Part shown: positions 28,232-40,736 of the stretch, piece by piece
Position numbering within the stretch: the stretch's first letter is position 1
Layout of the letters: each line of letters starts with the position of its first letter
Assembly: GCA_030706785.1 (NCBI GenBank)
Contig: JAUZNW010000004.1
Span: 1-52,169 of the forward strand
DNA length: 52,169 nt
From: Bacteroidota bacterium
Lineage (GTDB): Bacteria; Bacteroidota; Bacteroidia; Bacteroidales; VadinHA17
Direction: 5' to 3'
The notes under the pieces: model-generated
Told to the model about the DNA's origin: nothing
Databases searched by the model: none
What the model saw: only the letters and a program-made list of their open reading frames with translations
Made by a program: the position numbers and the translations under genes

Positions 28232-30019
28232 TTATTCGGCTGCAGTTATTTCTGTCAGCAGCCATAAAGTAAATGCAACCATAGGTGTCCAATATTCCGA
28301 TATCTGCCAGTTCCCGTTACCTATCACCGGCTGGTCATTAGCATCACCACCGAGTCCGTTCAGTACCGCACCCGGCAAGACTGGTGTCTGTGGAATAAAG
28401 GTACTTCCCGGAAAATGGACAGGATTATTATAACCGACTGTTTCAATTGTAGAGCTGTTGAAGGGATTGACGCCGATAATCCAGTCAAGCTGTCTCTGGG
28501 CTAATATCATTAATTCAGGATCATTAAGAGCTTTTGAAGCCTTCATCAATCCGACTCCTGCCGACGCCAGGTTTGAGTTGATACCAACCCACCAGCTGAG
28601 TTCCGGCTGCATGAAGTACCTGTACCAGTACTCACCTGTCTTTCTGTTCCCTCCGGGATCCTTACCTTCAAAAAGTCCGTAGGGAACGATGCCAAAGCTG
28701 TTTTTACCGGCCATCAGCTTTAGGTACTGTTGTGAATAATCCGATACGATCTGCTTCCACACTGCAGCATCCCTGTGCGACGGATTCGTAGCTATCATAT
28801 CAGATGCTGTTATGAATCCCAGGCATCCCTGCCAGATATCCTTGAATGGCTCTTTGCCCGACTGGCTTGTGTAAAAGAATCCATTTAGAATATTATTATC
28901 ATGACTGGACACCTGTAATTTTCTTAGTTTTGCCGCTTGCCCAGCAGCAAAATCGAAATAGGTATCCTTCCGGGTTGTTTTATATAATTCGTTCCCTGCC
29001 TGCATCGATGCTCCTATAATTGCTGCGTTTTCATCCCCGGCTGTTTTGGCGCACCAATCAAAGCATTTTATGGCAGCCTGAAGGCATCGGACAGAATAAT
29101 CAGGATTACCGGTCTGTGCAATCCTCGCCATGATAGCCTCCGCAGAAATGAAGTTATATTGACCTACAAGATCAAGAGGATCAGTCCTTATAACCCTGTC
29201 GTCATTCGATCCGAACAGGAGCATGTCAGCCATCGATTTTCCAGCTGTCGGCTTTATAAAAGCGAGTTCCCCGCCATCAGGTCCAACAATATTATCGGTC
29301 CAGCGGTTACTGTCGGAATGTTTCTTCACGTCGCCTCCGACATAACTCATGATATAACCATCAGGTTCCTGCATTTTCAGGAAATACTGGTTTCCCCACA
29401 GCAGCTCATCCAGAATTTTGATTCTGGCGGGATCAATCTCATCAAGTAGTTCATATGTCTTTGAAAGACCAATCATTCCGTAGATCGTTGCCCCAACCCA
29501 TTTTCTCAAGTCACTGGCATCGTGCCACCCTCCGGTGACATCCTGGTGTTTCCCGTTGTCCATCCTTATGCCATCGTCCACATGGCAGGGCGACAGATAG
29601 CCTGTTGTGCTTGAACCGCAGCGCTGAAGAGAAAAATAACCAACGATTTTTTCCATCGGCTTCCGGTAGGCTATTGAAGAAATTTCAAACGGGTAAGAGC
29701 GGAGAGTATCACATTTAATATAATAGTGACCGTCACGTGTAAGAGAACTGAAGTCCCCAGCTGACCATTCTCCGAAATCACCCGGACAAGGTTTAAGATT
29801 CCCGGAGTAAACAACCCGGTGTGATTCGAGGTCGATAATGTCAAAGGCTGAGGTCCTTATTCCTTTTGTTAAGACTCTCTTCCCGGCATGAGGGACATAC
29901 CCCACCTGATTGATAAGCAGATCAACATTCAGATCCCTTGAGATTCTTTGTGATTTAGTTTCCGGGCTTCCGGTGTAAAGAATGATAAGGGTGAGAGATA
30001 CAGGAATAAACTTTTTCAT
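28232..30019 (-). CDS. GH9 family glycosidase (cellulase-type), exported
   Basis: 595 residues with an N-terminal export signal (MKKFIPVSLTLIILYTGSP). An Ig-like CelD_N domain (about 32-120, LLINQVGYVP) precedes the (alpha/alpha)6 barrel. The nucleophile-activating pair is D167 and D170 in GGWHDASD (usual form DAGD) and the candidate proton donor is E575 in WQISEYWTP. DWIIGVNPFNSS corresponds to the conserved GVNP block; the usual RxPHHR segment is replaced by NNPVHFPGS. Predicted endo- or exo-acting beta-1,4-glucanase. First gene of the GH9-UnbV-GH5 operon; a good promoter lies at 30050-30080. Confidence 0.9.
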   Translation of the reverse strand: MKKFIPVSLTLIILYTGSPETKSQRISRDLNVDLLINQVGYVPHAGKRVLTKGIRTSAFDIIDLESHRVVYSGNLKPCPGDFGEWSAGDFSSLTRDGHYYIKCDTLRSYPFEISSIAYRKPMEKIVGYFSLQRCGSSTTGYLSPCHVDDGIRMDNGKHQDVTGGWHDASDLRKWVGATIYGMIGLSKTYELLDEIDPARIKILDELLWGNQYFLKMQEPDGYIMSYVGGDVKKHSDSNRWTDNIVGPDGGELAFIKPTAGKSMADMLLFGSNDDRVIRTDPLDLVGQYNFISAEAIMARIAQTGNPDYSVRCLQAAIKCFDWCAKTAGDENAAIIGASMQAGNELYKTTRKDTYFDFAAGQAAKLRKLQVSSHDNNILNGFFYTSQSGKEPFKDIWQGCLGFITASDMIATNPSHRDAAVWKQIVSDYSQQYLKLMAGKNSFGIVPYGLFEGKDPGGNRKTGEYWYRYFMQPELSWWVGINSNLASAGVGLMKASKALNDPELMILAQRQLDWIIGVNPFNSSTIETVGYNNPVHFPGSTFIPQTPVLPGAVLNGLGGDANDQPVIGNGNWQISEYWTPMVAFTLWLLTEITAAE

Positions 30020-30049: not shown

Positions 30050-30080
30050 TAAAAGTAAGTAAAATTTGTCCTTATTCAAA
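30050..30080 (-). promoter_or_regulatory. Promoter of the GH9-UnbV-GH5 operon
   Basis: On the minus strand TTTG (30080-30077) is followed after exactly 19 bp by TACTTTTA (30057-30050), a 7/8 match to TAnnTTTG. The leader to the ATG at 30019 would be about 25 nt. The -33 box directly abuts the repeat element starting at 30081. Confidence 0.6.
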
Positions 30081-30193
30081 AACTAACACGGAGAACATAG
30101 ACCTGTCTGCCGGGAGGCAGGGAAAACGCAGAGTTCCACTGAGCTAAAGAAATAATCCTCTGTGGAATTTCGTGGTTCTCTGTGTAACTAAAA
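30081..30193 (+). repeat. 113-bp intergenic element with terminal inverted repeats, copy 1
   Basis: Ends: ACTAACACGGAGAAC (30082-30096) and the complement of GTTCTCTGTGTAACT (30175-30189), 12 of 15 positions pairing. The centre holds the hairpin CTGCC-GGGA-GGCAG (30107-30120) within CCTGTCTGCCGGGAGGCAGG (30102-30121). A related copy lies in reverse orientation at 37275-37399: 34 of 42 positions match from 30102 to 30143, and 17 of 17 from 30177 to 30193. No reading frame. It separates the divergent GH9 and GH5 genes. Confidence 0.7.
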
Positions 30194-30366
30194 TGTTTCT
30201 ATAGTTCTCAATTAGTCTTTTAACCGGAGTGGATGAAAAATGCCCTAAATGGGCTTATAAATCCTACAATTTTATTAAATTTATGTCACTCTGATTTATT
30301 TTTGAAATTTAACCGGACCGGCCAATCTTGAAACCTTATCCTAATTAATCATAAATTCTTCCAACC
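30194..30366. other. Leader region of the GH5 gene, with small hairpin and -7-like box
   Basis: GCCC-TAAAT-GGGC (30242-30254) forms a 4-bp stem. TATTTTTG (30297-30304) is an exact TAnnTTTG match and would give a leader of about 55 nt for the GH5 ATG at 30367, but no TTTG lies 19-21 bp upstream, so the promoter assignment is weak. Confidence 0.35.
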
Positions 30367-31464
30367 ATGAAACATTTATCAAAGTTCTTATTTACAGTTC
30401 TGTTGACCTGTATACTGATTTCTGCTTGCCAAAGTAGAAAAGCAGAAAAGACATCGTACAAATTCCCATTCACAACGTTTGAGATAAAACGAGGGACCAA
30501 CATCGCCCACTGGTTGTCGCAAAGTGATCGCAGGGGAGAAGAAAGAGCGAAATTCATAACCGAAAAAGATATCGCTTTCATCGATTCGGTGGGCTTTGAT
30601 CATATCCGGCTGCCCATTGATGAGGTTCAGATGTGGGATGAAACAGGGAAACGGAATGATACTGCATTTGCACTGCTTAATAATTGTCTTGACTGGTGTC
30701 AGAAAGCTGGGCTGAGAGTTGTCGTTGATCTGCACATTTTACGGTCGCACCACTTCAATGAACAGGTAAAACCGTTGTGGACGGTTCCCGCGGAGCAGGA
30801 TAAATTCATTGCCTTCTGGAAAGATCTTTCGGATTTTCTTCATAATAGACCTCTGGCAATGGTCGCTTATGAACCCATGAATGAGCCTGTAGCCGATGAT
30901 CCCGAACAATGGAATGTTCTGCTCACAAGAGCAATTGATTCAATACGTAAAAGGGAACCAGCCCGTGTAATAGTTATCGGATCGAACCGATGGCAGTCTG
31001 CATCGACATTCGATCAGTTGAGGGTACCTCAGGGTGATACCAATATAATATTAAGCTATCATTTTTATGAACCGTTTTTCCTCACCCATTATCAGGCGGG
31101 CTGGACAAACCTGAAGGATTTTAAGGGGGAAGTGAATTATCCGGGGCAGATAGTGTTGAACAGCAACCTTCCTGAACACCAGAAGGTATACAACCGGGAT
31201 ACGCTTATCAAAATGATGGAAAAGCCTCTTCGCCTTGCCTCAACTCTTAAGCTGCCTTTGTATTGCGGGGAATTCGGCATTTACAGGAATTTCTTCCCTG
31301 CCGCAAAGCTTGACTGGTACAAGGACATGATCTCTATATTCGAGCAGTACCATGTTGCCTATGCGAACTGGAATTACAAATCAGGTGCATTCGGACTAGT
31401 CGGTGATGATGGAAAGCCGATACAGCCATATCTAAGCATTGTGGCCGGGAAAGGCTCCGACTAG
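30367..31464 (+). CDS. GH5 cellulase/mannanase-type lipoprotein
   Basis: 365 residues; signal peptide with lipobox ISAC near residue 21. GH5 TIM barrel with HIRLPID, VVDLHI, acid/base E173 in EPMNEPVA, SYHFYEP and nucleophile E302 in CGEFGIY. It is a single-domain relative of the GH5 at 23341: the barrel segments align (THYQAGW against THYKASW), but it lacks the beta-rich insert. Predicted endo-beta-1,4-glucanase or mannanase on the cell surface. It starts a plus-strand run of glycosidase genes and is divergent from the GH9 operon. The stop is followed by AACCAGCAAC-type repeat words (31484-31530). Confidence 0.9.
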   Translation: MKHLSKFLFTVLLTCILISACQSRKAEKTSYKFPFTTFEIKRGTNIAHWLSQSDRRGEERAKFITEKDIAFIDSVGFDHIRLPIDEVQMWDETGKRNDTAFALLNNCLDWCQKAGLRVVVDLHILRSHHFNEQVKPLWTVPAEQDKFIAFWKDLSDFLHNRPLAMVAYEPMNEPVADDPEQWNVLLTRAIDSIRKREPARVIVIGSNRWQSASTFDQLRVPQGDTNIILSYHFYEPFFLTHYQAGWTNLKDFKGEVNYPGQIVLNSNLPEHQKVYNRDTLIKMMEKPLRLASTLKLPLYCGEFGIYRNFFPAAKLDWYKDMISIFEQYHVAYANWNYKSGAFGLVGDDGKPIQPYLSIVAGKGSD

Positions 31465-31558
31465 TAAAAGTCAAACCAATCAGCACCCGGCACCTATCAA
31501 CAAGCAACCAACTAGCGACTAGCAACCAATTGAATTTCAATTATTAAATAATCATAGT
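31465..31558. repeat. CAAGCAACC word repeat plus short palindrome
   Basis: 31484-31530 consists of CAGCACCCGGCACC, CAACAAGCAACC and TAGCAACC words of the AACCAGCAAC class. It is followed by the palindrome AATTGAA-T-TTCAATT (31528-31542). No gene and no T-tract. Confidence 0.5.
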
Positions 31559-32698
31559 ATGAAACTAATCATTAGAATTCTCTCCACCCTGTTGATGCTG
31601 ACAGGAATATGTTCTGTTGTTTCTGCCCAGAATACCGAAGAACCGCTGTTTCAGATCAGGGGATTCTGCATAAGTGCACCACGCCCTGACGGTGTTGAGC
31701 GATTCGTAAAATTCATAGACGAGGAACTGGCAACAAGGGGTGTCAATACCCTTGTTCTTCTTGTCGACTATGGATTTAAATTCGAAAGCTATCCTGAGCT
31801 TGCAGACTCTGCTGCACTTTCAAAATCAGACTGCAGGAAGATAGTGAAAGTGTGCAGGAAGAACAATATCAGGATAATACCACAGATCAACCTTTTGGGC
31901 CATCAGTCCTGGGCGAACCATCCCAATCCATTGCTTACCCATTTCCCTGAATTTGATGAGACCCCATGGGTCAAAATGCCTGAAAAATATGTGTGGCCGA
32001 ATGCCGATGGACTTTATTGCAAAAGCTATTGTCCTCTTCATCCCGAAGTCCACAAGGTGATATTCGCTCTTGTTGATGAGTTATGCGATGCTTTTGATGC
32101 AGAGGCTTTTCATGCCGGCATGGATGAAGTATTCTATCTTGGTGACGATAAATGTCCCCGGTGTTCAGGAATTGACAAAGCTGTTTTATTTGCAGATGAG
32201 GTAAGAAAGATAAGAGATCACCTTGCCCTTAAGAACAGGGAGATGTGGATCTGGGGCGACCGTCTGATTGACGGAAAGACATCCGGAATGGGAATCTGGG
32301 AAGCAAGCTATAATTTCACTTACCGGGCTATCGACATGATCCCCAAAGACGTGGTGATCTGTGACTGGCATTATGAAAGGCCTGATCAGACGCCTGTTTA
32401 TTTTGCCCTCAAGGGATTCAGAGTAATTACCTGTCCCTGGAGAACTCCTGCAACAGCCGTCATTCAGGCGGAGGACATGGCGAAATTCAGGAAATATGCA
32501 ACGCCTGAAATGAAACCTAGGTATTACGGAATGATGCAGACCACATGGTCAAACCCTGAACGGTTCATAAACGGTTTTTACGGCATAAAGACCAATGACG
32601 CAAGGCCTGGCACCAATCAACAGGATCCGGCCAAGAATCCATGGGACACCTTTAGGGCAATGTACAAACGGATGGACGAGCTGTCTTCAATGAAATAG
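31559..32698 (+). CDS. GH20-like family glycosidase, exported
   Basis: 379 residues with a signal peptide ending VVSAQ. A TIM barrel without the usual GH20 N-terminal domain. The catalytic pair D189-E190 lies in FHAGMDEVF (H185-x-G-x-D-E, the GH20 signature); IIPQINLLGHQSW resembles the strand-3 histidine motif and WIWGDRL the strand that follows. A CPRC pair (about residues 198-201) follows the catalytic loop. Classical GH20 enzymes are beta-N-acetylhexosaminidases, but this short form is divergent and the substrate may differ. 18 bp upstream of the DUF5060 glycosidase, probably the same transcript. Confidence 0.75.
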   Translation: MKLIIRILSTLLMLTGICSVVSAQNTEEPLFQIRGFCISAPRPDGVERFVKFIDEELATRGVNTLVLLVDYGFKFESYPELADSAALSKSDCRKIVKVCRKNNIRIIPQINLLGHQSWANHPNPLLTHFPEFDETPWVKMPEKYVWPNADGLYCKSYCPLHPEVHKVIFALVDELCDAFDAEAFHAGMDEVFYLGDDKCPRCSGIDKAVLFADEVRKIRDHLALKNREMWIWGDRLIDGKTSGMGIWEASYNFTYRAIDMIPKDVVICDWHYERPDQTPVYFALKGFRVITCPWRTPATAVIQAEDMAKFRKYATPEMKPRYYGMMQTTWSNPERFINGFYGIKTNDARPGTNQQDPAKNPWDTFRAMYKRMDELSSMK

Positions 32699-32716
32699 CT
32701 TTATACAACTTCCGCT

Positions 32717-34501
32717 ATGAAGAGCCTGAGAGTTTTTTCCTTTGCAGCATTCCTAATCCTGACTTTTAATGCCATGGCAATTAAAAGCCCTGAGATACAG
32801 AACCTACGTCAAAGACCTGATACACTGGGACTTTATGAAAAACTGGAAATATCGTTCAATATAAATAACGGAAATGAGTACATCAATCCTTTTGATCCGG
32901 ATGAGGTTGATATAACTGCGCTTTTTACATCACCTTCCGGTAAAACATGGAAGATACCCGGCTTTTATTGTTATGCGATGGGGACACTCTGGAAGATCAG
33001 GTTTTCACCTGATGAAACCGGACTATGGAAATACATTGTTACCGTCAGGGATAAAGGAGGTGAGGTATCGAGTGCTCCACAATCTTTTGTTTCCGTAAGT
33101 TCTGCCAGGAAAGGACCTGTTGTGGTAGCTGATAATAAACGTTACCTGAAATACAGTAATGGTTCTGATTTCTATGGCGTTGGTCTCTGGTATAATGATA
33201 GTTACACCTCCTTTAACAGGGGCTCTGTAAGACCCGAAGAACTTGATAATCTTAAATCACTGGGGATTAATTTTATCGGAACCTTTATTACCCCGCTTGA
33301 AACACCGGGAAGCGGCCTGGGCAGGTATGACCAGAATATCTGCGGAAGGCTTGATGAGCTTCTTGAAATGTGTGAAGAACGTGATATGTTGCTAAGCCTC
33401 AACGTCTGGTTTCATTCCTACCTTTCAGAAACTGTATGGGGTGGGGGGAACATAAGATGGTATGCTAATCCCTACCAGCAGATAACGAGCGCAAAGGATT
33501 TCTACAGAAGCGAACCAGCCTGGAAATACCAGGAGAAGCTTTACAGGTATTTTATTGCCAGATGGGGATACAGCAGGGCGCTCGGGATATGGTTCATTGT
33601 CGATGAAATTAATGGAACCGACGGATGGGTAAAGGGAGACAGCCTTGCAGCATGTGACTGGGCTAAAAGGGTCCATGATTATTTCAAGGCAAATGATCCT
33701 TACAGACACCCAACAACCGGTACCAGGAGTGGAGGCATACAGGAGTATTGGAGGCAGGGATATCAAACCTTTGATCTGGCAGCAAGGGAAATCTATGAGG
33801 CTCAGGGATACCCGATCAACACGACAAGTACTATCGACTCGGCAAGGATCCATCCCCTTAAAAGCAGCTATACAAATTACGCAAACCAGATCAGGCGGTT
33901 ATGGAACGGATACGAAAAACCGGCAATAATTGGTGAAACTGGATGGGCTCATACATTTTACGAACCTTCCATGCCGGGATACCTGGCACAATATCACGAT
34001 GCACTATGGGTATCTCTGACAACGGGAACAGCCATGACACCTTTCTGGTGGGCTCACTCAAGGTTCATTAATGACAATGTGCTGACTGCCCAGATTACCA
34101 GCATAAAAAGATTCACAGACAGGATTCCCCTTTCGAAGCTGACAGGCATTGTACCCGCTTCAGTACAAAGTTCCCGTGGTGACGCTTTCGGTATTAAGAG
34201 TAACGAAGTTGTATTCGGTTGGGTGGCAAATCCTGATGCTGACGTTGCTGGTGTTAAAATTACGGTTTCTTCTCTGAGCAACGGTAAATACAAGCTGAGG
34301 ATCTTTCATACCTGGAGAGGAACATTTATTGATGAAAGGGAGATCTCATGTACTGACGGATCAGTCACTTTCGGGCCGCCGTACATGCATATTACAGGTT
34401 CCCAGGCTGTATATATCGGGCAGGATGTTGCATTTATCCTGGAAAGATTGCCCGATCCGGCGCCATTACCTGATAAGGGAAAAAAGCCAGGGAAGAAGTG
34501 A
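32717..34501 (+). CDS. DUF5060-containing glycosidase (clan GH-A type), exported
   Basis: 594 residues; signal peptide ending FNAMA. Residues about 25-125 match the DUF5060 beta-sandwich (FTSPSGKTWKIPGFYC, RFSPDETGLWKY). A TIM barrel follows (about 150-480), with putative acid/base E297 in IVDEING and nucleophile E407 in IIGETGWA. A C-terminal beta-sandwich (about 495-580) ends in a basic Pro/Lys tail. Related proteins are assigned to GH5-like or DUF4038-type families; activity is not predictable. The stop is immediately followed by a 14-bp tandem repeat array. Confidence 0.8.
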   Translation: MKSLRVFSFAAFLILTFNAMAIKSPEIQNLRQRPDTLGLYEKLEISFNINNGNEYINPFDPDEVDITALFTSPSGKTWKIPGFYCYAMGTLWKIRFSPDETGLWKYIVTVRDKGGEVSSAPQSFVSVSSARKGPVVVADNKRYLKYSNGSDFYGVGLWYNDSYTSFNRGSVRPEELDNLKSLGINFIGTFITPLETPGSGLGRYDQNICGRLDELLEMCEERDMLLSLNVWFHSYLSETVWGGGNIRWYANPYQQITSAKDFYRSEPAWKYQEKLYRYFIARWGYSRALGIWFIVDEINGTDGWVKGDSLAACDWAKRVHDYFKANDPYRHPTTGTRSGGIQEYWRQGYQTFDLAAREIYEAQGYPINTTSTIDSARIHPLKSSYTNYANQIRRLWNGYEKPAIIGETGWAHTFYEPSMPGYLAQYHDALWVSLTTGTAMTPFWWAHSRFINDNVLTAQITSIKRFTDRIPLSKLTGIVPASVQSSRGDAFGIKSNEVVFGWVANPDADVAGVKITVSSLSNGKYKLRIFHTWRGTFIDEREISCTDGSVTFGPPYMHITGSQAVYIGQDVAFILERLPDPAPLPDKGKKPGKK

Positions 34502-34894
34502 GCCGCGGGACACAAGACGCAGGACACAAGACGCGGGACACAAGACGCAGGACACAGGACACAGGGCACAAGACGCAGGACGATGGGCATAGGATATCTG
34601 CGAAAATCTGCGGTTTTATCTGCGTGAATCTGCGAGGAATAAAAAAAAAAGAAGTCTACCGCAGAGTATCACTGATTTGTTCGCAGAGTTACGCAGAGTT
34701 GAAAGGATTGAATAGGAGAAAGGGGGAGTGGGAGAAGCGATGTGTTTCCTGTGTTAGGAGTGGTGAAGAAAAGACGGAAGGCGGAAGACAGTGAAACTCG
34801 ATATTAACTCAGTGAAATTCAGTGGTAAAACAGAAGTGAAAAAATATAAATATCTTGAAATACATTGAAATACATGGAAATATTTGGGAATAAG
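34502..34894. repeat. Composite repeat region: 14-bp tandem array and ATCTGCG, CGCAGAG, GAAATACAT words
   Basis: No gene. 34507-34576 is a 14-bp unit (RGGACACAAGACGC) in five copies, with variable positions 1, 4, 9 and 13 all A or G. 34596-34634 has four ATCTGCG words. 34655-34697 holds CGCAGAGT words, 34698-34713 repeats the 16-mer seen at 1494-1509, 34800-34832 has AACTCAGTGAAATTCAGTGG words, and 34855-34882 has GAAATACAT units. An apparent reading frame at 34498-34794 is a product of these repeats. I see no promoter match for the next gene. Confidence 0.65.
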
Positions 34895-37231
34895 ATGGTT
34901 AGAAATAAACTTTATCATACCTGCCTTTGGTTGGTAATGGTTTTTATCGGAATCTTGATTTCTGTCCAACCAGCCACTGCACAGAGAAAGAAGTCCAAAA
35001 AAACTGAACCAGTACCTGTTGATCAGAACATTGTGCTGGCTGACAAGGGTTTGAGTGCATACAGGATCGTGTTACCTGCTTCTGCAACAACATATGAACA
35101 AAAGGCAGCATCAGTGCTGCAGGATTACCTCCTTCAGATAAGCAGTACTGCACTTCCGATACTGCCGGAAAATAAGAAAGGAAGTCCTTATGAGATTCTG
35201 CTTGGTCAGAATGAACGGCTTAACCGGCTGAACGCCGGCATAAGCTTTAATGACCTCGGAACTGATGGATTTGTGATAATGACCGACAGCATGCGTCTGA
35301 TCATTGCAGGAGGGAACGGGAAAGGCACACTGTATGGTGTCTATACGTTTCTCGAAAAGTACCTGGGCTGTCGCATGTACAGCCCTAAGGTAAAGATCGT
35401 TCCAAAACTGGAGAAGATATCGCTCGGAACAATTAAGGATAAGCAAGTCCCTGTAATTAAGTTCAGGGATACCCATTATCGTATATCATGGGACCAGGAG
35501 TATACCGACTGGCATAAATTGAGTCACGATGAGCGGGGCAACAGACCGGCATGGGGCTCTTGGGTACACACCTTTAACAGTCTGGTGCCTCCTGAGATCT
35601 ATTTCAGGGATCATCCTGAATACTATGCGCTGCGTGATGGAAAGAGGATCCCGACCCAGTTGTGCCTTACCAATCCGGAAGTTCTGAAGATCGTGATCCA
35701 AAATCTCAGGAGGAAGATAGCCGAAAACCCTGGTGCCCTGTACTGGTCAGTCAGTCAGAACGATAACCGTCAATACTGCACATGCGATAATTGCCGCGAA
35801 CTTAACGAGCGTGAAGGATCTCCTTCAGGTTCAATTATAAATTTTGTAAATCAGGTGGCAGAGCAGTTTCCCGATCATAGAATATCTACCCTGGCATATG
35901 AATATTCACGTAAAGCTCCTATAAATATCAAGCCGGCGAAAAACGTGAATATAATGCTCTGCAGCATTGAAATGAGGAGGGACCGGCCATTTGCAGAAGC
36001 TACCGATTCTGTCAGCACTGCCTTTGTCAGAGATGTAAGGGACTGGAGCAGGATAGCCAGTGATATTATTGTCTGGGATTACGTGATCCAGTTCCCAAAC
36101 CTGGTAAGTCCATTCCCAAACCTTCATGTACTGCAGCCAAACCTTCAGTTCTTTGCGGAGAACGGAGTAACAGCTATGTTTGAACAAGGGAACCGGGAAG
36201 TTGGCGGTGAATTTGCAGAATTACGTACATACATGATTTCAAAGCTTTTATGGGATCCTTATTGCAATACCGACAGCCTGATAAATGATTTCCTTAATGG
36301 CTATTACGGTGAAGCTGCAGGTCCGATCAGAAAGTATATAGATATGATGCGGGAGGCATCGCTTGCATCTGAACAGCCTCTCGGGATTTTCGCTTCCCCG
36401 AATAAAGCTGCAGAGAGTTATCTTACGAGGCCCTTGATTGATAATTACAAGAAATTGTTTGATGAAGCGGAATCTGCTGTGGCTGATTCTGCCGAAATTC
36501 TTGAAAGAGTGAGAATTGCCAGGTTGCCCTTGAATTTTGCGATAATGGAGCAGTCCAAAAAGATCTTTTATGGCGAGTACGGATCTTTTATTAGAGAGGG
36601 GGATAAATGGGTTGTGAACCCTGAGATCAGATCGATGGTCGATCCGTTCGTTGATCTTTGCATCAGGCAGGGAGTGACCAGGCTTAAAGAATGGAGCACA
36701 ACACCCGAAGCGTATCGTGCAGCAATGTACAGGCTTTTCTATCAGGGCAGGAATGAGCATCTTGCGTACGGGAAAGAAGTAAGGTTCATTAGTCCCGATA
36801 TTTCGGCAATACCTGAAGAAGAGCGGAAAATACTTACTGATGGTATAAGGGGAAGTCATGATCCGGAATACAACTGGCTTGATTTCCAGGGAAAGGATCT
36901 CGATGTAATAATCGACCTTGGAGAGATCCAGCTTGTACATCATATCGAGTGTGCATTCTACCAATTGGCAGCATGGCTCAGTATTGTTCCGAAGGAGGTG
37001 GATTTTCTGATATCGGCAGATGGGGAAAAGTTTGAATCTACCGGAGTCGTAAAGAATACATTACCTATTGATCAATATGATTCATATCAGAGAGACTTCA
37101 TTATCGATTTTAGGCCGCTGAATGCCAGATATATCAGGGTTGTCGCACATACTATCGGTAACACACCTGAATCACACCCCGGAGCGGGCCAGCCTGCAAG
37201 AATGCATATAGATGAGATAGTTGTCGAATAA
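34895..37231 (+). CDS. DUF4838 glycoside-hydrolase-like protein with C-terminal F5/8-type domain
   Basis: 778 residues from ATG 34895; an in-frame ATG at 34865 lies inside the GAAATACAT repeat and is less likely, because 34895 begins a standard signal peptide (MVRNKLYHT... to ATAQ). Residues about 40-165 resemble the alpha-glucuronidase-like N-terminal domain (GKGTLYGVYTFLEKYLGCRMYSP). DUF4838 follows (about 190-520), with YWSVSQNDNRQYCTCDNC, typical of the family. The C-terminal about 130 residues (IIDLGEIQLVHHIECAFYQ through DFRPLNARYIRV) form an F5/8-type discoidin sandwich. DUF4838 proteins sit in polysaccharide loci; activity not established. Separated by 393 bp of repeats from the upstream gene. 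Confidence 0.82.
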   Translation: MVRNKLYHTCLWLVMVFIGILISVQPATAQRKKSKKTEPVPVDQNIVLADKGLSAYRIVLPASATTYEQKAASVLQDYLLQISSTALPILPENKKGSPYEILLGQNERLNRLNAGISFNDLGTDGFVIMTDSMRLIIAGGNGKGTLYGVYTFLEKYLGCRMYSPKVKIVPKLEKISLGTIKDKQVPVIKFRDTHYRISWDQEYTDWHKLSHDERGNRPAWGSWVHTFNSLVPPEIYFRDHPEYYALRDGKRIPTQLCLTNPEVLKIVIQNLRRKIAENPGALYWSVSQNDNRQYCTCDNCRELNEREGSPSGSIINFVNQVAEQFPDHRISTLAYEYSRKAPINIKPAKNVNIMLCSIEMRRDRPFAEATDSVSTAFVRDVRDWSRIASDIIVWDYVIQFPNLVSPFPNLHVLQPNLQFFAENGVTAMFEQGNREVGGEFAELRTYMISKLLWDPYCNTDSLINDFLNGYYGEAAGPIRKYIDMMREASLASEQPLGIFASPNKAAESYLTRPLIDNYKKLFDEAESAVADSAEILERVRIARLPLNFAIMEQSKKIFYGEYGSFIREGDKWVVNPEIRSMVDPFVDLCIRQGVTRLKEWSTTPEAYRAAMYRLFYQGRNEHLAYGKEVRFISPDISAIPEEERKILTDGIRGSHDPEYNWLDFQGKDLDVIIDLGEIQLVHHIECAFYQLAAWLSIVPKEVDFLISADGEKFESTGVVKNTLPIDQYDSYQRDFIIDFRPLNARYIRVVAHTIGNTPESHPGAGQPARMHIDEIVVE

Positions 37232-37274
37232 AGGTATTCCTCTCTTTCTTCTAATTCTTCTAAATAGGAATATT

Positions 37275-37399
37275 TTTTAGTTACACAGAGATCCACGTAG
37301 AATAACAAATGTTCACAGAGATACTAGTTCTTAACTCAGTGGGATTCTGTGTCTTCCCTGTCTTCCGGCGGGCAGGTTTTAGCGTGTCCGTGTAAGTTC
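37275..37399 (-). repeat. 125-bp intergenic element with terminal inverted repeats, copy 2 (inverted)
   Basis: Reverse-orientation relative of the element at 30081-30193. The reverse complement of 37335-37376 matches 30102-30143 at 34 of 42 positions, and TCTCTGTGTAACTAAAA (complement of 37275-37291) is identical to 30177-30193. Centre: CCTGTCTTCCGGCGGGCAGG (37357-37376). The far end GTCCGTGTAAGTT (37386-37398) is the partner of the ACACGGA end of copy 1. It lies 140 bp upstream of susC, between DUF4838 and the susC promoter. The flanks 37232-37274 and 37400-37447 hold nothing I can identify. Confidence 0.7.
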
Positions 37400-37447
37400 T
37401 TGAAGTGCGCCAAAAATGGCAATTATGCGAATAAAAGCCTGGGAGAA

Positions 37448-37538: not shown

Positions 37539-40500
37539 ATGATTTTTAGAAAACTGGACAAATTTACCAGACTGGTTTTGATTTTGTTTCTGTTGCTGAC
37601 ATCGTCGCAGATGGTGCTGGCGCAGGGACGGGTTATTACCGGTACCGTCAAAGACTCAGACGGTGGAGCTCTGGTGGGTGTTACTGTCCTGATTAAAGGC
37701 AGCACAGTCGGAACACTCACGAATGCACTAGGAAAGTACTCAATTAATGCGGGAAGCAATGATGTATTGAGCTTTTCCTTTGTTGGTTACGTTGCACAGG
37801 ATATTCCTGTTGGTAACCAGACAACTATTGATGTAACTTTATCAACCGAGGTTTCACAACTTGGTGAAGTTGTCGTGACAGCACTTGGTGTGACAAGATC
37901 GACAAAAGCTTTGCAGTCAACAATTGCCAAAGTTGACGGCTCAAACCTCACCCAGGCACGGGAAATTAACCTTGGTAATGCCATCCAGGGACGTGTAGCT
38001 GGCGTGAATGTGTCCAATCCGGGTACAGGTCCGGCAGGATCTTCCCGTGTTATCATCAGGGGGAACAAATCGATCGGGGGTGCTAACCAGCCCCTTTATG
38101 TAGTTGACGGAATCCCTATGGATAACACACAGTTCGGCCGGTCCGGAGTATGGGGAGGAGTGGACCAGGGAGACGGCCTATCGAGCCTTAACCCTGAGGA
38201 TATTGAATCTGTAACTGTTCTTAAAGGCGCTGCTGCTGCTGCACTTTATGGTTCCAGAGGTGGTTTCGGAGTTATCAACATCGTAACAAAACGCGGCCAG
38301 GCCCGCAAGGGTATCGGAGTTGAATTAACCTCCAATTATGTCTTTGAGAATGTGATAAACTGCTCTGACCTGCAGCAGGTTTATGGCCCCGGAGGAATAG
38401 TTGACGGTCCGGGCGGTACAAGGATCTATGGAAAACCTGTTGATCAGCAGCAAGCTTATAACTGGGGAGCCACTTCAATGTGGGGACCAAAACTGGATGG
38501 TTCTTCAGTTATCCAGTTCGATGGTGTCGCAAGACCCTATTCCTATGCCGGGGATAACTGGAAGCGCTTTTATGAAACCGGACATACATGGACCAACAGC
38601 ATTGCCATTTCAGGTGGAGGCCAGAAACAGACCTATAGGTTCTCATTCTCAGATCTGACCAATACTACCATGATTCCCAATGAATCCTTCAAGAGGAGGA
38701 ACCTTTCACTAACAACAAACGGGAAATTTGGCGAAAGGGTTACCTTCAATGCCAAGGTCATGTATTCGAATGAGAAAACGGAGAACAGGCAATACACGGC
38801 TGACAGCCCTGCAAATATTCCCCAGGCAATATGGGCACTCGCAAATACATTAAATGTATACGATCTTAAAGGTGATCCCAATAAACTGGGTGCAGTTGCT
38901 CCAGGCGTTACTACACCTGACCTGAAATCAACAGGCGAAGAATTTCAGGAGGCCAATAATAACTGGCTGCAAAACCCCTACTGGGTCGCTTACCAGTTTA
39001 AGAATGAGAACCTCAGGGACCGTTTCATCGCATCTGGAAACGTTAGATATGATATATTCAAATGGCTGTGGGTGCAGGGACAAGTGGGGATGGACTATTT
39101 CGTAAGAAATAATAATTTCCTCGTTCCCCAGGGCACCGGTTATCTTCGCGGAGGTTCCAAAAATGAAACCTCAAACTTCGTGAGGGAAATTAACATGGAG
39201 TGGATGGTCGGTGGTGATCATGAATTCGGAAAGTTCAGGGTCAATGCGTTTGTGGGTGGAAACAGAATGGTGCATGATTATGAGACAATTCAGGCAAACG
39301 GTTCTAACTTCAATATTCCATTCTACACCTCAGTGACCAACACTAAGTCTCAGAGCTTCGGATACGGCTATTCCAAATCAGGGATTAACTCCATTTACGG
39401 TTCGGCCGAGTTAAGTTACAATAATTATGTATTTATTACTGCCACAGCCAGAAACGACTGGTTCTCAGTACTTAATCCGGTTAACAACAGTAAGTTGTAC
39501 CCATCACTAGGCGGAAGCTTTATATTCACTGATGCATTCAAATTCCTGCCTGACTGGCTCAGCTACGGCAAATTAAGGGTAGCGTGGGGTCAGGTTGCAA
39601 CTGCCAATGTTGGTGCTTATTCGTCGAGTATTACTTATGGCCTGTTTGGACAGGGACATCTTGGTCTTCCTATGGCAGGATTCTCGGGAGGAGATAATAT
39701 TCCGAACCCGAATCTTAATCCCGCTTTGTCGACCGAGATTGAGTTCGGAACTGATCTTAGATTCTTTAGAGGAAGACTAGGCTTGGAGTTCACCTATTAC
39801 AACCAGAAGACGACCGATGATATCCTGTCTGCATCGATCTCAAGAACTTCAGGATTCCTGACGACATCTGTAAATATAGGTGAGCTGTCGAATAAGGGAG
39901 TTGAAATAGTGCTAAGCGGAACACCCGTACAGGGACCGATAACTTGGGATGTTTCACTAAACATTGCACAGAATAAAAACAAAGTAATTGCGCTTAGTCC
40001 GGGTGTGACAGAGCTGAATGTTGAGGAACCTCGTACCAGAACTGTTTATATTAAACACATTGTCGGTTATCCTTTCGGAATGATCACCGGATATGTGCAG
40101 AAGACTGACAAGCAGGGTAACAAGGTTTATGAATCAAACGGCTCACCCGCCAGATCCGATGTATATGAGATACTGGGGAACGGCGTGGCCAAATTCACCG
40201 GAGGTCTGACCAATACATTGACCTGGAAACGTATAAGCCTGAATGCACTTATCGACTTCAAGTTTGGAGGTGATATCTATTCAGGAACCAATGTTCGTCT
40301 AACCGAATGGGGTTTGCATAAACAGACACTGAAGAACCGCGAGGGAGGAATGGTTGTAACAGGTGTAACTCAGACCGGTACTTCAGGGGGTGAACCTGTT
40401 TATGCGCCATTTACACTGACACTTAATCAGGAGCAGACACGTCAGTACTGGAGTAACCTGGGTGAACGGGCCGAAGAGAATTTTATATATGATGCTTCAT

Positions 40501-40736
40501 TCATCAAGCTGAGACAGATTTCTATTGAATACAGCTTTGCCCCGAAAATCCTGGCTAAAACTCCATTCACTAATCTTGCCGTGTCATTCGTTGGAAGGAA
40601 CCTTGCCATACTCTACAAGAATATAGACAATGTCGATCCGGAATACGGTTACACGGATAGTGCCGCTCAGGGTCTCGATTACTTTGGTATGCCGACAACC
40701 CGTACTTTTGGTTTTAACGTGAAAGCAGTATTCTAA
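37539..40736 (+). CDS. susC: SusC/RagA-type TonB-dependent outer-membrane transporter
   Basis: 1065 residues with a signal peptide ending MVLAQ. Order: carboxypeptidase-regulatory-like domain (about 31-110, ITGTVKDSDGGALVGVTVLIKG), the conserved LGEVVVTALG stretch, plug domain (about 120-240, VIIRGNKSIGGANQPLYVVDG), then a 22-strand barrel ending in the terminal Phe of outer-membrane proteins (NVKAVF). No N-terminal STN domain is present, so direct control of an anti-sigma factor is not indicated. It imports oligosaccharides held by its SusD lid; from the neighbours a beta-1,4-glucan or mannan oligosaccharide is likely. susD follows after 18 bp. Confidence 0.95.
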   Translation: MIFRKLDKFTRLVLILFLLLTSSQMVLAQGRVITGTVKDSDGGALVGVTVLIKGSTVGTLTNALGKYSINAGSNDVLSFSFVGYVAQDIPVGNQTTIDVTLSTEVSQLGEVVVTALGVTRSTKALQSTIAKVDGSNLTQAREINLGNAIQGRVAGVNVSNPGTGPAGSSRVIIRGNKSIGGANQPLYVVDGIPMDNTQFGRSGVWGGVDQGDGLSSLNPEDIESVTVLKGAAAAALYGSRGGFGVINIVTKRGQARKGIGVELTSNYVFENVINCSDLQQVYGPGGIVDGPGGTRIYGKPVDQQQAYNWGATSMWGPKLDGSSVIQFDGVARPYSYAGDNWKRFYETGHTWTNSIAISGGGQKQTYRFSFSDLTNTTMIPNESFKRRNLSLTTNGKFGERVTFNAKVMYSNEKTENRQYTADSPANIPQAIWALANTLNVYDLKGDPNKLGAVAPGVTTPDLKSTGEEFQEANNNWLQNPYWVAYQFKNENLRDRFIASGNVRYDIFKWLWVQGQVGMDYFVRNNNFLVPQGTGYLRGGSKNETSNFVREINMEWMVGGDHEFGKFRVNAFVGGNRMVHDYETIQANGSNFNIPFYTSVTNTKSQSFGYGYSKSGINSIYGSAELSYNNYVFITATARNDWFSVLNPVNNSKLYPSLGGSFIFTDAFKFLPDWLSYGKLRVAWGQVATANVGAYSSSITYGLFGQGHLGLPMAGFSGGDNIPNPNLNPALSTEIEFGTDLRFFRGRLGLEFTYYNQKTTDDILSASISRTSGFLTTSVNIGELSNKGVEIVLSGTPVQGPITWDVSLNIAQNKNKVIALSPGVTELNVEEPRTRTVYIKHIVGYPFGMITGYVQKTDKQGNKVYESNGSPARSDVYEILGNGVAKFTGGLTNTLTWKRISLNALIDFKFGGDIYSGTNVRLTEWGLHKQTLKNREGGMVVTGVTQTGTSGGEPVYAPFTLTLNQEQTRQYWSNLGERAEENFIYDASFIKLRQISIEYSFAPKILAKTPFTNLAVSFVGRNLAILYKNIDNVDPEYGYTDSAAQGLDYFGMPTTRTFGFNVKAVF

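Follow-up and report, generated by a model that had tools for sequence, protein, structure and literature searches.

Two related palindromic elements beside glycosidase genes of a Bacteroidota genome are probably copies of a dispersed hairpin repeat

Three groups of small palindromic repeats are the closest described systems to the elements analyzed here. The enterobacterial repetitive intergenic consensus (ERIC, or IRU) is given a length of 127 bp, and fusions with RNA genes are also mentioned for the Rickettsia palindromic elements (RPEs), in the parts of the source that we drew on for both groups (PMC2229807). The third group comprises the REPINs and REPs with their RAYT, a Y1 tyrosine transposase. 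Among the results listed, searches of the open-access literature by motif and by topic retrieved no description of the element family reported below, two copies of which, termed E1 and E2, lie on either side of a block of four glycosidase genes in a Bacteroidota genome of the order Bacteroidales.

The window, by which we mean the whole stretch of DNA that was analyzed (52,169 nucleotides), is one whole contig of a draft genome of 3.65 Mb in 299 contigs, which is 97% complete with an estimated contamination of 6.5%. An initial annotation of the window had placed in it two related elements in opposite orientation, and this was confirmed: E1 and E2 are related imperfect palindromes of 111–122 bp that are mutually inverted, show 74% identity when E1 is compared with E2 in reverse, and have B-side ends that form a 23-nt inverted pair with 96% complementarity. 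The places originally given for them (30081-30193 and 37275-37399) were right, but their borders were redrawn from the end profile across many copies and are listed in revised form in Table 1. A GC palindrome of 20 nt is indeed present in both elements; it had been described as a shared central palindrome, but it sits off-centre, in the arm adjoining the AAGAACTT-type end. The two ends of one unit are unlike each other (AAGAACTTACACAGAG versus CTCTGTGTAAC). On the plus strand, E1 has a predicted fold of -42.9 kcal/mol (z -5.4), and the fold of E2 is weak (z -1.7 and -1.5).

Table 1. Positions in the window of E1, E2, their nested palindromes and the neighboring genes
Feature	Position	Strand	Basis
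GH9 gene left of E1	28232..30019	-	Pfam PF00759
E1, full-length element, A end AAAAACTAACACGGAG to B end CTCTGTGTAAC	30078..30188	+	End profile of many copies, covariance model
Nested palindrome P1 in E1, CCTGTCTGCCGGGAGGCAGG	30102..30121	+	
GH5 gene	30367..31464	+	Pfam PF00150
GH20-like gene	31559..32698	+	Pfam PF00728
DUF5060 gene	32717..34501	+	Pfam PF16586
Degenerate words of the E1/E2 kind inside the supposed block	34660..34830		
DUF4838 / GH67N-like gene	34865..37231	+	Pfam PF16126, PF03648
E2, full-length element, orientation opposite to E1	37280..37401	-	End profile of many copies, covariance model
Nested palindrome P1 in E2, CCTGCCCGCCGGAAGACAGG (minus strand)	37357..37376	-	
SusC-like gene right of E2 (SusC/SusD side)	37539..40736	+	Pfam PF07715, PF13715

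The four genes between E1 and E2 were assigned by Pfam as had been predicted (GH5, GH20-like, DUF5060 and DUF4838), and none of them has a transposase domain, in agreement with the earlier remark that no transposase was seen. E1 and E2 are not an exclusive pair, as words of the same kind occur within the block itself (Table 1). The stretch at ~34789-34826 aligns with the junction between DUF5060 and DUF4838 in a relative (locus L059); two other loci in the source genome align with it as well. Separately, at 34487-34595, at and after the stop of the DUF5060 gene, the window has a 14-bp tandem repeat of the AGACGCAGGACACA type with six overlapping reference copies, and this repeat is followed by ATCTGCG words, which makes the intergenic DNA here a patchwork of several repeat types.

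A covariance-model search of the genome and its relatives, which had been proposed at the outset, was run with a model (R1) built from six copies and found further copies in the source genome, in the genus and in the order. In the source genome the search returned at least 44 rows at E<=1, which were merged over strands to at least 31 places, and at least 20 places at E<=1e-3, six of them seed copies and at least 14 outside the seed; since 150 of the 729 first-look candidates were scored in this run, the counts may be a lower bound. E2 and E1 were recovered with E-values of 4e-25 and 7e-21, respectively, values that are rough and belong to seed copies, which match by construction. In addition, a DNA search identified a third homologue on another contig, and the word pattern CTCTGTG[GT][AT]NCT..TGG gave 15 rows versus none in the reversed control. 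Rows at E<=1e-3 were present in 28 of the 58 genomes of the genus (source genome included), at 0 to 25 rows per genome with the 25 in G071, and in 18 of 198 genomes evenly drawn from the order (source genome included). There was no R1 row in the other 30 genus and 180 order genomes, which were searched with stricter filters and with 61 and 17 candidates scored per genome, so that absence from them is unproven and they provide a weak negative control for R1. In a relative from another family of the order, whole elements are arrayed in tandem at one locus (L320, G199:C18:7258-8349); the repeat unit measures ~114 bp, and some of the array reads as N.

The build of the element was derived from 88 genus copies, 60 of them taken by place from the genus matches to R1 and the other 28 obtained directly with that search. 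In undecayed copies a loop separates four CACAGAG words from four CTCTGTG words and the ends are AAGAACTTACACAGAG and CTCTGTGTAAC; the ancestral unit is AAGAACTTACACAGAG-N3-CACAGAG-N4-CACAGAG-N3-CACAGAG-loop-CTCTGTG-N3-CTCTGTG-N4-CTCTGTG-N3-CTCTGTGTAAC. Both ends are sharp: the A end has AA at 97% and 93% and then a drop (70 A ends), and the B end has GTTAC with a drop one base outward (65 B ends). With regard to terminal inverted repeats, the arms of inverted words are long, but by a pattern test the outermost ends were unlike (AAGAACTT versus GTAAC) in 39 of the 88 copies, and the others had two A ends (15), two B ends (6) or at least one unclassed end (28). A sub-variant in which TCCGGA replaces part of a word was noted in 14 of the 88 copies, including L264, L266, L283 and L287; judged by eye, it affects one arm only.

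In the initial annotation the elements had been likened to a MITE or a structured element, and a MITE-like structured element is supported. The elements are short (<200 bp), non-coding and dispersed, as expected of MITEs, and their hairpin build, sharp ends and location mostly between ORFs also agree with it. With a simple ORF caller, 41 of 50 copies (23 from the source genome and 27 from the genus) were found between ORFs, four overlapped one and five were at contig edges; the gene setting was co-directional for 23, convergent for 10 and divergent for 8. On the other side, neither a convincing target duplication nor a TA rule was found. It had been remarked that no target duplication was seen at E1 and E2, and flank statistics over 86 copies likewise gave no convincing target-site duplication, the best flank signal being z 4.3 among 1,936 tests. 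Terminal TA is likewise not the rule, with TA directly outside GTTAC in 15 of the 65 B ends.

Presence and absence of the element were compared at one orthologous locus in 15 regions, out of 49 genomes with a match. A full-length element fills this locus in G027 and G034, and a remnant of the B half was found in G066. Ten species have both flanks and no element, and in G020, G032 and G068 there is a single flank in which no element was found. The tightest empty site is that of G026, where 125 bases of G027 are unmatched and the flank alignments overlap by 6 bases. Neither an excision nor a new insertion was seen in the genomes compared. At other loci, two gap comparisons (L142 versus L085 and L113 versus L069) gave element-bearing gaps and a third (L140 versus L085) a partial one, the exact points in all of them being masked by intergenic divergence.

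E1 and E2 had been suggested to mark the borders of a movable module of the four glycosidase genes. Such borders could be the terminal inverted repeats of a composite transposon or a pair of sites for recombination, and the opposite orientation of E1 and E2 with the 23-nt inverted pair, as well as the common theme of the genes that they enclose, would suit that role. So would the finding that the block is not fixed: among the best 80 of 319 GH20 loci, compared with flanks of up to 10 kb, only six had another block gene at >=50% identity (L053, L056, L057, L058, L059 and L105), and in one of these, L105, an FG-GAP gene separates off an inverted SusD/SusC pair. However, when loci with and without the block were compared, DUF4838 was followed by SusC-SusD without E2 in all three relatives with this arrangement (L053, L057 and L059), and the divergent GH9/GH5 pair was without E1 in the single relative that has it (L058), the relatives without E1 and E2 being, at 64-86% protein identity, too distant for exact insertion points. 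The R1 search at E<=1 gave no match in L053, L056, L057, L058 or L105. In L059 there were weak matches only (best 15.9 bits), and these were at the other junction, DUF5060–DUF4838, which holds a word-type relative with long arms and where the window has degenerate words too; the GH20–DUF4838 junction of L053 has a CGCAAAG-type relative. Also against a module are the lack of a transposase domain in the four genes and the number of other copies in the source genome, at least 29 places besides E1 and E2 at E<=1 and at least 18 at E<=1e-3. Copies in the source genome lie apart from the block and the junctions of the relatives are without E1 and E2, which is the outcome that had been named beforehand as speaking against a module border. 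Based on the synteny of L053, L057, L058 and L059 we rejected such a border, which we regard as very improbable, and the location of E1 and E2 beside glycosidase genes is probably incidental. A regulatory RNA structure had also been proposed. A conserved structured RNA that affects the flanking transcripts, be it as leader, terminator or stability element, would be in keeping with the strong fold of E1, with z values below -3 in 82 of the 88 genus copies and with the 41 of 50 copies located between ORFs, and ERIC copies are described as altering mRNA stability in Yersinia in the part of PMC2229807 used here. Against it are the weak fold of E2, the orthologous junctions without the element, the gene orientation around copies, which is not fixed, and the outcome of two scans, as Rfam gave no match at gathering score in the whole window and a simple terminator scan found no terminator-like site at E1 or E2.

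Selected pairing would make the own arms of a copy fit each other best, but they do not. Of 22 source-genome copies, 9 had own arms that paired better than the swap median, as did 7 of 26 genus copies and 21 of the 88 genus copies. In a pooled arm test, 21 of 88 genus copies and 10 of 23 source-genome copies had own arms above the pool median, although this test mixes arms of the same type and is biased against own pairing. In a fairer, oriented test on the 32 of 88 copies that passed the end filter, some of them shortened by it, 4968 of 5000 permutations equalled or exceeded the own arms in pairing strength, indicating that own pairing is weaker; loss of near-perfect palindromes may be one possible reason for this. 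The arm-swap tests gave no sign of compensatory base-pair changes, and in the seed alignment one pair of 11 was compensated. There is therefore no support for a selected RNA structure, and a regulatory RNA, rejected on the arm-swap tests, Rfam and the terminator scan, appears quite unlikely to us. Since own arms fit no better than swapped ones, the hairpin is best regarded as inherited from the common source and as eroding in each copy. A further candidate was a REPIN-like element moved by a RAYT, which would account for a hairpin of inverted words in mostly intergenic positions and for the tandem clusters in one relative (G199), and Y1 genes are present in 49 of the 58 genus genomes. However, the three Y1 loci of the source genome (2.2-3.3 kb each) hold single words only (L005:2165, L006:2121, L007:1188 and 2500), no element was found beside the Y1 gene in any of the three on inspection, and the palindromes seen by eye at their flanks are different ones. 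Moreover, two carriers of the element, G022 and G034 (87% and 85% complete), are without a Y1 match, and the presence of Y1 in 26 of 28 carriers versus 23 of 30 non-carriers is not significant (Fisher p 0.15). Given the Y1 loci of the source genome without the element and the lack of a significant association, the link to RAYT was rejected and we consider it unlikely; the search for Y1 transposases in the 58 genus genomes yielded no mobilising gene. As judged by eye, the Y1 genes in L005, L006 and L007 each appear to be flanked by short palindromes of their own, which are GTAG-like or GGATTGCAAATCC-like.

We are confident, if not certain, that a non-coding hairpin element of ~95-125 bp is dispersed here, that E1 and E2 are two independent copies of it in partial decay, and that their location beside glycosidase genes is a matter of chance. 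The best reading is that of non-autonomous, MITE- or ERIC-like hairpins, in which smaller palindromes are nested and which undergo decay once inserted. Such an element would spread as non-autonomous DNA by means of an enzyme supplied in trans, which probably recognises the hairpin, and single-strand-type transposition is hinted at because the ends are unlike and no target duplication is detectable. The element would land in AT-rich intergenic DNA, where it would then decay without selection for pairing.

The palindromes nested within the arms are 18-20 nt in length. In the source genome, P1 (CCTGYCTGCCGNNNGGCAGG, two mismatches allowed) was identified at 12 places and P3 (TCCCGATARYTATCGGGA, one mismatch allowed) at 15, with none in the control for either, and a pattern match detected a further kind, P2, in 5 of 23 source-genome copies. 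On reading the 15 P3 copies, six were in CACAGAG-type elements and three in CGCAAAG-type elements, while three occupied the D-loop position of truncated tRNA copies; the remaining three were elsewhere. Visual inspection placed P1 in the corresponding slot of an element from a different family of the order as well (L321). The same patterns detected P1 in two and P3 in two of the 88 genus copies; nesting of palindromes is common in the source genome and not in the best-scoring genus copies.

Truncated 5' tRNA copies were observed directly upstream of an intact tRNA with a palindrome (P3 or P1, 18-20 nt) at the D-loop position, in the form AGCTCA-TCCCGATAGCTATCGGGA-GG, at L232, L235, L239 and L245 in the source genome and at L328, L331 and L333-L344 in the genus. 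Up to five such copies stand in tandem (L333, period 54). The pattern AGYTCA-P3-GG (<=3 mismatches) occurred in 18 of the 58 genus genomes and not in the control, with some of the matches not being tRNA-like. Twelve regions were selected from these matches, and ARAGORN predicted a tRNA for Gly, Val, Ala or Met in 11 of them; among six further loci with the pattern two were clear (L328 and L331) and the rest were cut, masked or distant from a tRNA. A search of the open-access literature found no description of palindrome-bearing tRNA copies, and the nested palindromes at this D-loop position are perhaps the most novel part of our analysis. Tentatively, and with somewhat less than even confidence, we propose a two-layer system in which the CACAGAG/CGCAAAG word hairpins are a landing site for the 18-20 nt GC palindromes, which would be separate, ultra-small dispersed units. 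These would insert at preferred slots within the arms of hairpins and also, within this genus, at the D-loop position of truncated tRNA copies directly upstream of intact tRNA genes, with up to five copies in tandem. That palindromes are common to hairpin repeats and tRNA copies raises the question of how a palindrome of 18-20 nt can multiply.

For the annotation of Bacteroidales gene loci, it is important to note that such repeat pairs are not to be taken as module borders. A well-bounded hairpin repeat family with a patchy distribution over one genus (28 of 58 genomes) also offers a direct way of looking for the enzyme behind its spread. By build and size the element is a variant of the small palindromic repeats that stands outside any named family, and it was filed in this way because several of the features by which MITEs are recognized were lacking or left undecided. 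REPINs and REPs with RAYT resemble it in having inverted words that form a hairpin and in the occurrence of tandem clusters, as described in the part of PMC3116915 that we used, but they differ in that no element here lies beside the three Y1 genes of the source genome and no significant link was apparent in 58 genomes. The RPEs, hairpins of 105-146 bp in the portion of PMC2229807 cited above, are similar by description, and unlike them the element described here has 41 of 50 copies between ORFs and four overlapping one. ERIC/IRU is alike in size, hairpin build, dispersed non-coding copies and an unknown mobiliser, again by description; a target-site duplication and a terminal TA are tabulated for it in that same portion of PMC2229807, whereas neither was found as a rule in the present element, to which the heptad-word build and the inner palindromes belong.
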